Source: a virus
Virus record (IMG/VR): IMGVR_UViG_3300011013_000072
Location: 1 to 26,124 of that record
Length of the DNA: 26,124 nucleotides
Strand: one strand, 5' to 3'
The notes under the pieces are model-generated. The model was not told where the DNA came from. It did not search any database and worked only from the letters and a program-made list of their open reading frames with translations. The translations under genes were made by a program, and so were the position numbers. This document shows, piece after piece, positions 23,737-26,074 of this stretch. Numbering within the stretch: the first letter of the stretch is position 1; the number at the start of each line of letters is the position of its first letter.

Positions 23737-23955
23737 ATGAGTGTATTGGTGCAGTTCCGCTGTACCGAAGAGGACTATTGTCAGATGAAATTCTTGGCAG
23801 TTAAATTCGCTCGTGGTCGCCTCGCCGATTGGCTTCGATATGCCTCGGTCAACTCGAATCCTATGAAGGATATGTTAGGGGAAATAGATGAAAATGAGGA
23901 CGACGGCAACTCGCCGGATACAGTTTTGCGCGGGCCACAGGGTTCAGAACCATGA
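23737..23955 (+). CDS. Ribbon-helix-helix-like small DNA-binding protein, 72 aa
   Basis: Start ATG 23737 is preferred (AGGA 5 nt upstream); ATG 23713, eight codons earlier, is the alternative. The first 45 residues have the Arc/CopG/MetJ layout: a short strand (SVLVQFRCT), then a helix (EEDYCQMKFLAVKFA), a turn and a second helix (LADWLRYASV). An acidic C-terminal tail (GEIDENEDDGNSPD) follows. Such proteins bind palindromic operators as dimers, and a perfect palindrome lies about 50 nt upstream. It is the first plus-strand gene, so a control role is plausible. The 3' end overlaps the next gene by 68 bp in another frame. Confidence 0.62.
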   Translation: MSVLVQFRCTEEDYCQMKFLAVKFARGRLADWLRYASVNSNPMKDMLGEIDENEDDGNSPDTVLRGPQGSEP

Positions 23956-24352
23956 GTCAAAGTGCGCCAACCTCCATGGACATAACTACGTCGTCTTTAT
24001 TCACGCGATGGCTCCGGCCCTTGATTCTGTCGGTCGTGTGATTGACTTCAGCGTGTTGAAGGATCGCATCGGTGGCTGGATCGACAAGTGGTGGGATCAT
24101 ACTATGATCTTAGGCATCAATGACATTAAGACGATATCAGGTGTTCGAAAGTTCCAGAAGAACAAACCGCTGTTTATCCTCTCGGAAAACCCGACGGCGG
24201 AAAACATGGCCTCGTTCCTTTTAAACAATGTCTGCCCGTCGCAGCTTTTGGGGACAGGCGTCATTGTAACGAAGATAGTTTTATGGGAGACGGAGAATTG
24301 TTTTGCTTCCGTTGAACTTGATTTTGAAGAGTCTAAAAGACTCTGTAACTAA
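23888..24352 (+). CDS. queD: 6-carboxy-5,6,7,8-tetrahydropterin synthase (QueD / PTPS family), 154 aa
   Basis: QueD turns dihydroneopterin triphosphate into 6-carboxytetrahydropterin, the second step of the preQ0 (7-deazaguanine) pathway. Zinc ligands fit His17 (FCAGHRV), His30 and His32 (LHGHNY); the catalytic Cys is Cys26 (ESKCANLHGH); Asp70-His71 (WWDHTMIL) and a Glu in VLWETEN complete the active site. Motif GRVIDFSVLKD and PTAENMASFL are family hallmarks. Phages with such genes often modify their DNA with 7-deazaguanines, but no FolE, QueE, QueC or transglycosylase is in this window. ATG at 23888 has AGGGGAA upstream. A pure folate/biopterin PTPS role is less likely. Confidence 0.9.
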   Translation: MKMRTTATRRIQFCAGHRVQNHESKCANLHGHNYVVFIHAMAPALDSVGRVIDFSVLKDRIGGWIDKWWDHTMILGINDIKTISGVRKFQKNKPLFILSENPTAENMASFLLNNVCPSQLLGTGVIVTKIVLWETENCFASVELDFEESKRLCN

Positions 24353-24356
24353 CAAA

Positions 24357-24394
24357 TTAATCAAGGAGCTGGATAACCCATCTCCATCAACACA
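24357..24394 (+). repeat. Repeated 38-nt leader, copy 1 (upstream of the sponge-like gene)
   Basis: Matches the segment at 25150-25187 in 36 of 38 positions. Contains a potential hairpin GGAGCTGG-ATAAC-CCATCTCC with seven of eight pairs (one C-T mismatch). It ends directly before the ribosome-binding site (GAGGAG) of the gene at 24409. Probably a regulatory leader or translational control element; the function is unknown. Confidence 0.8.
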
Positions 24395-24408
24395 GAGGAG
24401 AATTAATT

Positions 24409-24816
24409 ATGGCTTTAGAGACTTTAAAAGGTTTAGAAGAAATTGGTGGGTATGACATTGTCGTCATGGACGAATTGAGAGAGAAGTACCCAGAAAAATT
24501 TAACCCAGACGGATCAATGCAGTGGGAGTGGTTTGAAGGTGAGATAAGGCCGAATAATTTTATCTATATCCGAAACGATAAGAATAGCCTTTCCTTTACT
24601 CTCCAAAAAGGTCCGATAAAAGAACATGGGGTGAATGGCTGTCAAGTAGATACACTAATACATGCAGCTATACAGATCATTGAAGGATTAGATAATAAGT
24701 TTACTTCTGTACATAACAAAGATGCAAAATCCCATCTACACCAGGCATTATATCACCTAGAAAAAAGGAGACTTGACCGAGAGGCTCGCGGAGTGGAAGG
24801 GACAAGCCAGACATGA
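24409..24816 (+). CDS. Tad1/Acb2-like signal-sponge candidate, 135 aa
   Basis: The C-terminal half (residues 76-135) has a helical-hairpin layout with GVNGCQVDTLIHAA, KSHLHQALYHLEKR and a closing DREARGVEGTSQ, which I recognise as the pattern of the Acb2/Tad1 hairpin family. The N-terminal half (35-67: WEWFEGEIRP, NFIYIR, SLSFTLQ) looks like beta-strands, matching Tad1 more than the shorter Acb2. Known family members bind cyclic nucleotides or cyclic ADP-ribose variants and block CBASS or Thoeris immunity. GAGGAG lies 8 nt before the ATG, after the repeated leader; the stop overlaps the next start (ATGA). The family call is from memory of the motif; which signal it would bind is unknown. Confidence 0.62.
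   Translation: MALETLKGLEEIGGYDIVVMDELREKYPEKFNPDGSMQWEWFEGEIRPNNFIYIRNDKNSLSFTLQKGPIKEHGVNGCQVDTLIHAAIQIIEGLDNKFTSVHNKDAKSHLHQALYHLEKRRLDREARGVEGTSQT
24761..24810 (+). repeat. 50-bp coding repeat, copy 1 (3' end of sponge-like gene)
   Basis: Matches 25089-25138 in 43 of 50 positions and in the same reading frame. Encodes KKRRLDREARGVEGTSQ-type sequence at the C-terminus. Four of the seven differences are silent (in Val, Gly, Thr and Ser codons). Confidence 0.85.
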
Positions 24817-25049
24817 GTGATCAAAAAAATATAGGACCTAAATCTGCTGAACTCCTTAGGTTCATATACGCCGATGTGATGGACAAGGATATTCTACTGT
24901 GGAAACTATACGGAGTCCATCCGGCATCCTCTGAGCGGGCTAGGTCCTCGGCTAAGACTGATATAAATAAGATGGTACAACGCCTTCGGGGCATTGGCTA
25001 TAGGCTCGTAAACGATACCAAGCGTATCTATTTTATCGAGGACTACTAA
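24813..25049 (+). CDS. Small winged-helix-like protein, 78 aa
   Basis: ATG at 24813 overlaps the previous stop (ATGA) and its own stop shares a base with the next start (TAATG), so three reading frames are chained. The second half (SAKTDINKMVQRLRGIGYRL followed by VNDTKRIYFIED) fits a recognition helix plus beta-wing, as in winged-helix DNA-binding proteins. No acidic effector or enzymatic motif is seen. It may regulate its own block, but the fold is a guess by eye and a function is not known. Confidence 0.62.
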   Translation: MSDQKNIGPKSAELLRFIYADVMDKDILLWKLYGVHPASSERARSSAKTDINKMVQRLRGIGYRLVNDTKRIYFIEDY

Positions 25050-25144
25050 TGATCTCGTATTTAAAAGACCGCCTTTCGGGCAGGATAAAAAAAAGGAGAC
25101 TTGTCCGAGAGAATCGCGGAGTCGAAGGAACGAGTCAGCAATAA
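25049..25144 (+). CDS. 31-aa ORF with RExRGVEGTSQ tail (partial duplicate of the sponge-like gene end)
   Basis: Starts with ATG in TAATG at the stop of the previous gene and encodes MISYLKDRLSGRIKKRRLVR then ENRGVEGTSQQ. The last 17 residues repeat the end of the sponge-like protein, while the first 13 do not. The two tails differ by silent changes in four of the eight codons of RGVEGTSQ, so the peptide sequence appears to have been held. It could be a translated, functional small peptide or the relic of a duplicated gene; the coupled start favours translation. There is no good Shine-Dalgarno apart from coupling. Confidence 0.5.
   Translation: MISYLKDRLSGRIKKRRLVRENRGVEGTSQQ
25089..25138 (+). 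repeat. 50-bp coding repeat, copy 2 (end of the 31-aa ORF)
   Basis: The second copy of the tail-coding repeat, 43 of 50 positions identical to 24761-24810, lies 11 nt before the second leader repeat. Confidence 0.85.
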
Positions 25145-25149
25145 ACACG

Positions 25150-25187
25150 TTAATCAAGTAGCTGGATAACCCAGCTCCATCAACACA
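25150..25187 (+). repeat. Repeated 38-nt leader, copy 2 (upstream of the GNAT gene)
   Basis: Second copy of the leader. Hairpin AGCTGG-ATAAC-CCAGCT is a perfect 6-bp stem with a further outer G-C after one mismatch. The two differences from copy 1 remove one pair and create another, so the number of pairs stays seven of eight. AAGGAG follows, and the GNAT start comes 10 nt later. Confidence 0.8.
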
Positions 25188-25756: not shown

Positions 25757-26074
25757 ATGCAGATTGAACTAAGTGAATTATTACAACTAGCATCCGGCAA
25801 AGTAGCCCAAACCCATCCGTACAAAATCGGAGAGAAATATCTAATCCGAACAGTCACGATGATCTACACGGGTCGTCTGATAGAAGTACATGATCAGGAG
25901 CTAGTAATCGAAGACGCAGCGTGGATCGCTGAGACAGAACGTTGGGCTGATTGTCTGAAAGATGGAAAATTCAAAGAGGTAGAGCCTTACACCGACGGCC
26001 GTGTTGTCATTGGCCGAGGAGCTATTCTTGACGCTTCAATTTGGCAGCATGATCTCCCTCGGAAGCAAAAATAA
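25757..26074 (+). CDS. Uncharacterised family protein with LIRTVT, DAAWIAETERW and GRGAILDASIW motifs, 105 aa
   Basis: ATG at 25757 with GAGGAG 6 nt upstream. The protein appears beta-rich with Trp and acidic residues; the pattern KYLIRTVTMIYTGRL, ELVIEDAAWIAETERW, FKEVEPY and VIGRGAILDASIWQHDLP is one I recall from hypothetical proteins of phages and bacteria, always without a function. No signal peptide or membrane segment. It is the last complete gene of the accessory block. Recall of the family is not verified by a search. Confidence 0.75.
   Translation: MQIELSELLQLASGKVAQTHPYKIGEKYLIRTVTMIYTGRLIEVHDQELVIEDAAWIAETERWADCLKDGKFKEVEPYTDGRVVIGRGAILDASIWQHDLPRKQK

Follow-up and report, generated by a model that had tools for sequence, protein, structure and literature searches.

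A Tad1-family protein with a reworked C-terminal hairpin from an uncultivated phage

Introduction

Tad1 proteins are wide-spectrum sponges, and the open reading frame at positions 24409..24816 (+) of the 26,124-base virus record analysed here (the window, by which the whole of that stretch of DNA is meant) raises the question of whether its 135-amino-acid product, P0001, belongs among them and which signals it would then hold. A preliminary description had called it a candidate sponge of the Tad1/Acb2 type lying in a phage accessory block, with a beta-rich N-terminal half and a sponge-family pattern in its C-terminal half. The tad1-like gene is intact, comprising 135 codons plus stop in a single open frame, and is preceded by a ribosome-binding-like GAGGAG box (24395..24400 (+), 8 nt before the ATG, read from the sequence); coding on the reverse strand of 24409-24816 was ruled out, stops being found throughout. 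Relatives are referred to below by the numbers of their loci (L001, L002 and so on).

Membership of the Tad1 family

When compared with the PDB by phmmer, P0001 matched CmTad1 (8kbb) with an E-value of 5.8e-10 across residues 64-134, the matches of this single-sequence search to phiKZ gp184 (E 0.01) and CbTad1 (E 0.95) being weak. A 30-member family profile, in which P0001 is included, gave 7.8e-38 for CmTad1, 2e-25 for CbTad1 and 3.9e-19 for phiKZ gp184, and PHROG 2428 matched all 30 of the profile members, P0001 itself at E 4.6e-20. P0001 is also 39% identical over 74 columns to the Tad1 of SBSphiJ7, which is annotated as Tad1 in its own record and comes from the phage that a review gives as the origin of tad1 (PMC12043709).

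Further matches to P0001 were obtained by tblastn (E <= 0.1) in 51 phage records, 14 of which, picked for spread, were retrieved for analysis, and by a plasmid search in five Acinetobacter records with a single match each (39.6%). A single-sequence search of the genome collection, which reaches close relatives only, returned 90 stretches with none confirmed, and the NCBIfam and PADLOC scans gave no match for P0001. Two candidates were rejected: the Pfam model HP1451_C, found far under its cut-off in a short stretch of P0001 at about residues 13-31 (E 0.17) and similarly in 10 of the 11 other scanned subfamily members (E 0.029-0.15), and rotavirus VP4, whose PDB matches with L001 (E 0.018-0.087) were too weak.

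The AlphaFold model of P0001 (mean pLDDT 78.5) ends in a C-terminal hairpin of two predicted helices, residues 80-97 (24646..24699 (+)) and 101-126 (24709..24786 (+), with R120 and R124), and the Tad1 trait of two long antiparallel C-terminal helices is present in it. When the model was compared with the PDB by Foldseek, ranks 1-15 were all Tad1 chains and rank 16 was unrelated, with a probability of 0.15, although the best match reached an E-value of only 3e-3 and a TM-score of 0.41. Comparison with 8kbb by VIA gave a Z of 7.9 and an rmsd of 1.4 Å over 55 residues, this Z being below the level which VIA deems clear for helical hairpins. For the model of the sister protein L001, fold ranks 1-10 were CbTad1 (best Z 7.8) and the matches included T4 Acb2 (7uq2; Z 6.2, rmsd 6.1 Å, 60 residues); Acb2 was absent from the PDB fold-match lists of the P0001 model, an absence which excludes nothing. 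The helical hairpin on which the proposed assignment depended is predicted and Tad1 chains head the lists, with scores that are modest for a lone hairpin, so that it is the sequence evidence which carries the weight.

On the evidence of its sequence, P0001 is a Tad1-family protein, a new member from an uncultivated phage of a kind that is already known, and its relation to Tad1 by sequence, profile and predicted fold bears out the family call made in the preliminary description. The pattern quoted there, GVNGCQVD...LEKR..DREARGVEGT, is present in the translation, with the qualification that its GVNG part precedes both predicted helices and so lies outside the C-terminal hairpin to which the pattern had been assigned. 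The beta-rich character ascribed to the N-terminal half stood in part: the model shows strands at residues 15-19, 51-55 and 60-63 but also helices at 20-26 and 39-46, making up an N-terminal fold of three strands and two helices at residues 15-63, while the fold comparison concerns mainly residues 64-135. This domain is likely the Tad1 beta domain (beta1-beta4) carrying an insert.

The environmental-phage subfamily

The N-terminal domain (residues 1-65, 24409..24603 (+)) is common to a subfamily of environmental phages. A search with residues 1-65 of P0001, L001 and L002 recovered 29 loci, all of which, with the exception of L122 and L111, read as Tad1 proteins (L112 and L115 being cut at the contig start). 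In this subfamily the domain is of the kind VMDELREKYPEKFNESGSMDYKWFE..IRP, for which the same two helices and three strands are predicted in the models of P0001 and L001, and in the tree P0001 falls inside a supported 25-row set with subfamily members (99/93); P0001 is thus a member of an environmental-phage subfamily with an N-terminal domain of its own. The invariance of K71-G77 follows by construction from the search pattern [IV]KEHGVN, and H73 varies among the loci recovered with residues 1-65. In the branch formed by L117-L121 and L123-L125 the Q-x-G-P-x-K-E-x-G-V-N-G stretch reads like MLTKPASEGGDLNRCQ, and both R101 and T108 are retained in seven of these eight loci, the exception being L117. 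L111 (257-625), a Tad1 of the subfamily, has neither the C-REN motif nor the conserved RGVEGT tail, and is either truncated or decayed.

The likeness of P0001 to characterised Tad1 proteins (CmTad1 8kbb/8kbc/8kbd; CbTad1 7uav/7uaw/8smd/8kbe/8kbf; SBSphiJ7) extends over the sequence of residues 62-134, the predicted hairpin, N103/R120/R124 and the VEGT tail; it differs from them in the subfamily-specific N-terminal domain with its two predicted helices, and in having V101/S108 where these proteins have R and T. With phiKZ gp184, the Tad1 of a jumbo phage (8y6v), it has in common that R and T are both absent, E and N being found there instead, whereas the solved gp184 chain has 230 residues and P0001 matches its last third. 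Its likeness to Acb2 (T4 Vs.4, 7uq2; PaP2 p26, 8h2j) is in the register of the hairpin around A-x-T-x-L; Acb2 is described, however, as a short helix plus two long ones, with no beta domain and with fewer than 100 amino acids, while P0001 has predicted N-terminal strands and 135 amino acids.

The reworked hairpin and Pfam PF24729

P0001 is 65% identical to L001, in which both R101 and T108 occur. The two are identical at 70 of the 94 positions of residues 1-94 but at only 18 of the 41 positions of residues 95-135, as against 77/94 and 32/41 in the N- and C-terminal parts when L001 is compared with L002. Across the 735 family pairs with enough aligned columns (out of 820), the C-terminal part averages 0.13 higher identity than the remainder, and the two P0001 pairs, with L001 and L002, are the most negative of all at -0.31, the next being -0.15, these values referring to a 94/95 boundary placed by eye once the alignment was known. 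The identity of P0001 to both relatives falls from about residue 91 onward. According to the alignment, residues 100-108 (24706..24732 (+)) read S-V-H-N-K-D-A-K-S in place of the usual family motif C-R-E-N-x-x-A-I-T, R101 being replaced by V and T108 by S, and the conserved C-terminal tail RRLDREARGVEGT follows at residues 120-132 (24766..24804 (+)).

When P0001 was scanned by hmmscan with the Pfam model of this hairpin, PF24729 (Acb2_Tad1_hairpin), at its curated cut-off of 27 bits, no match was obtained, in contrast to its sister L001 (33.2 bits) and the Tad1 of SBSphiJ7 (34.2 bits, 2.9e-8). All nine tested proteins having both R101 and T108 were matched (among them L002, L030 and L004 under the curated cut-off), compared with none of the eight lacking R101, T108 or both (P0001, L012, L104, L112, L113, L116, L098 and L102). 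The profile search that had been proposed as a check on the assignment therefore gave a divided answer, PF24729 being silent and Tad1 itself being matched by sequence and by profile. The double label Tad1/Acb2 can be kept for its Tad1 half but not for its Acb2 half, since the PF24729 hairpin signature is undetected and positions 101 and 108 are V and S.

Judged from the alignment, the part of the hairpin common to Tad1 and Acb2 is reworked in P0001 and likewise in many of its relatives. If PF24729 sees one state only, as it seemingly does, Tad1 genes may be under-counted, and it is the combination of a two-state hairpin with a public model that sees one of the states among the 17 tested proteins which takes these results above the routine.

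Two states of R101 and T108

Counted over 67 rows of the Tad1 alignment, of which P0001 is one, R101 and T108 are both present in 32 and both absent in 26, R101 occurring alone in three and T108 alone in six; inside the subfamily (n=26) the corresponding figures are 17 with both, nine with neither and no mixed rows. Without L013, L014 and L027 the count over 64 rows is 32 both, 26 neither, one R only and five T only, L013 and L014 having R without T and L027 having T without R, all of them contrary to a two-state reading. Loci identical to kept rows were dropped (L005, L016-L018, L020, L023-L025, L036, L101, L103, L107 and L114), L122 (a 28-aa fragment) and L003 (cut by the contig end) were excluded from the counts, L111, in which the tail is absent, is outside both the 64- and the 67-row counts, and phiKZ gp184 was not counted.

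When columns 99-117 are removed before the tree is built, at least 15 changes are required at R101 and at least 14 at T108. Nine independent pairs on supported branches were available, in which T108 follows R101 in 5.5 on average, does the opposite in none and shows no difference in 3.5 (sign test, median p 0.031, or 0.0625 with S counted as T); residues 109, 112, 115 and 116 tend to vary alongside the two. When column pairs were ranked, R101-T108 came 9th of 1176, and because most of the higher pairs, such as 79-81, are split by clade, the claim of two states rests on the repeated switches and not on the raw p-value. Naturally occurring pairs of proteins would allow the sequence rule given by this pattern to be tested. 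Literature searches, none of them aimed at exactly this split, did not find it, and it may be in print.

The presumed gcADPR pocket behaves differently from R101 and T108. Among aligned members R120 is found in 65/65, R124 in 64/65 and N103 in 63/65, and in the 26 rows without R101 and T108 these residues are kept in 26/26, 26/26 and 25/26, respectively. They correspond to R109, R113 and N92 of CbTad1 (7uaw numbering, in which model 134 is chain 123), which we take to be gcADPR contacts, and all three are retained in P0001 at matching columns.

As regards Acb2, hhalign placed residues 104-118 of P0001 on residues 64-78 of T4 Acb2, with S108 at T68, in an alignment that is weak (probability 10%). 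In PaP2 Acb2, R67, which presumably matters for cA3 binding, precedes the corresponding T by seven residues, just as R101 precedes T108, and T4 Acb2 has D61 in its place. According to PMC12657230, the T68M substitution lowers binding by T4 Acb2, an effect seen where the signal is a dinucleotide, and loss-of-function mutations in acb1 or acb2 are found in three T4-like phages with natural resistance to Panoptes. Panoptes signals through a dinucleotide, so that T68 may have its role in binding dinucleotides, and its site is not necessarily the one for trinucleotides, which in Tad1 is separate from the gcADPR/dinucleotide site, as described in a review (PMC12043709). Panoptes was triggered by CbTad1 and ColiTad1, two of the four Tad1 alleles tried, in a study in which it is also argued that the specificity of sponges may be adjusted by the phages (PMC12657218).

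Taken at its widest, this pattern could mean that R101 and T108 form a single functional unit homologous to the Acb2 T68 site, that phages repeatedly switch the whole unit off while keeping the gcADPR pocket, and that P0001, like some 40% of the family members sampled, is a narrow Thoeris-directed sponge without cyclic-oligonucleotide capture, possibly avoiding tripwire defences like Panoptes. We put this forward tentatively, and consider it unlikely to hold in full. If the second state were an escape from Panoptes-like guards, it would constitute a molecular trace of that trade-off outside the T-even phages.

Proposed function and alternatives

The reading that we favour, and regard as probable, is that P0001 is a sponge of the Tad1 type with a bias towards the gcADPR pocket and with an Acb2-like site that is weakened or altered, its ligands being putative. 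By analogy with the solved Tad1 proteins it would assemble as dimers into hexamers and would hold, without cutting, host nucleotide alarm signals, the effectors (ThsA or those of CBASS) thus staying off. The most likely ligands would be gcADPR isomers, and perhaps cyclic dinucleotides of the same pocket, held by N103/R120/R124; with R101/T108 replaced, the cyclic-oligonucleotide binding that depends on them, whether of tri- or dinucleotides, is predicted to be weak or changed, which is said with less confidence.

It is this last step that is questioned by the alternative that P0001 is a fully canonical broad sponge, for which V101/S108 are irrelevant and which binds gcADPR, dinucleotides and trinucleotides as CmTad1 and CbTad1 do. 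S108 retains the hydroxyl of T. The binding of cyclic trinucleotides (CTN) is given as conserved among Tad1 homologs in the review mentioned above (PMC12043709), which speaks against the predicted loss in P0001, and phiKZ gp184, with E and N at the two columns, is described in PMC13282480 as a functional sponge that blocks both CBASS and Thoeris, so that a protein can lack the pair and still function. However, R101 and T108 co-vary in 58/67 rows and in 26/26 in the subfamily, as a working unit would, and binding by Acb2 is affected by the residue to which T108 aligns (PMC12657230). We consider a fully broad spectrum to be rather improbable.

We assign a similarly minor probability to a chimeric origin, according to which the hairpin was acquired from a different Tad1 lineage instead of having evolved fast. 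The loss of identity that sets in near residue 91 relative to L001 and L002 would be expected in such a case, the hairpins of the L012/Troll type match P0001 slightly better (20/41) than that of L001 does (18/41), and the tad1 3' end occurs a second time 328 nt downstream (25086..25138 (+), 53 nt, 85% identical to 24758-24810), so that this end has been duplicated or recombined. No hairpin donor was found, however, and the triplet tests were not significant (p 0.19 for L012 and Troll, 0.17 for ABMM1 and 1.0 for SBSphiJ7).

There is only a slim chance that the hairpin has been freed of constraint in a decaying sponge that is no longer functional, as might be suspected from its far greater divergence relative to the N-terminal part and from the existence of the tail-less relative L111. 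The open reading frame is intact, N103, A106, R120, R124, R127 and VEGT are kept, and of the nine codons that differ between the last 19 of the two tail copies, four are synonymous, four change the amino acid and one is the stop, the proportion of synonymous changes (4/8 amino-acid codons) coming from a small sample. Slimmer still is the chance that P0001 is a virion or other structural protein having the Tad1 fold, since, although relatives in Lactococcus phage 1706 and Bacillus phage P59 are annotated 'structural protein' and the phiKZ Tad1 is said in PMC13282480 to be injected, the same paper describes the latter as a working sponge and the gene studied here is on the + strand, outside the - strand run, which has the terminase genes at its start.

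Genomic neighbourhood

When the first 25,000 bases of the window were compared by megablast with 50,697 phage records, no match was obtained. The - strand carries terminase genes (PHROG matches) followed by long open reading frames which, judged by eye, resemble genes for portal, capsid and tail proteins. Opposite this run, at the right end, is a short + strand block in the order 93-aa ORF, PTPS, tad1, 78-aa ORF, 31-aa ORF, GNAT and 105-aa ORF, in agreement with the accessory block named in the preliminary description. The QueD-like PTPS gene (23888-24352 (+), Pfam E 7.5e-25) is directly upstream of tad1 and may be connected with 7-deazaguanine modification of DNA or with queuosine. The 78-aa ORF (24813..25049 (+)), whose start overlaps the tad1 stop (ATGA), gave nothing above noise in Pfam, PHROGs, NCBIfam and PADLOC and had no relatives in the viral contigs or the PDB. 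Its stop is in turn overlapped (TAATG) by the start of the 31-aa ORF (25049..25144 (+)), at the end of which the second Tad1 tail, RRLVRENRGVEGTSQQ, is encoded.

A 59-nt leader repeat is found just upstream of tad1 (24336..24394 (+)) and, with 83% identity, just upstream of the GNAT acetyltransferase gene (25129..25187 (+)), this gene being located downstream of the second copy (+ strand, Pfam E 7.7e-8). The repeat was not found elsewhere in the window with up to three mismatches, had no exact matches in the viral contigs, and its 12-mer core was absent from 43 other loci, a further set of loci giving a 13-nt chance match only; it contains a small hairpin whose RNA fold z-scores (-2.07 and -0.78) are not convincing. 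Together, the tail copy and the leader are probably the remnant of a second tad1 copy or older allele that has mostly been lost.

The 105-aa ORF (25757-26074 (+)) is without a Pfam or NCBIfam match and has a relative downstream of tad1 in L001 (6611-6940; 54% over 92 columns). In both the window and L001 it is followed by an ORF starting with MNQAIL, which in L001 runs into a serine/arginine-rich repeat and in the window reaches the end of the record just after RSRSG.
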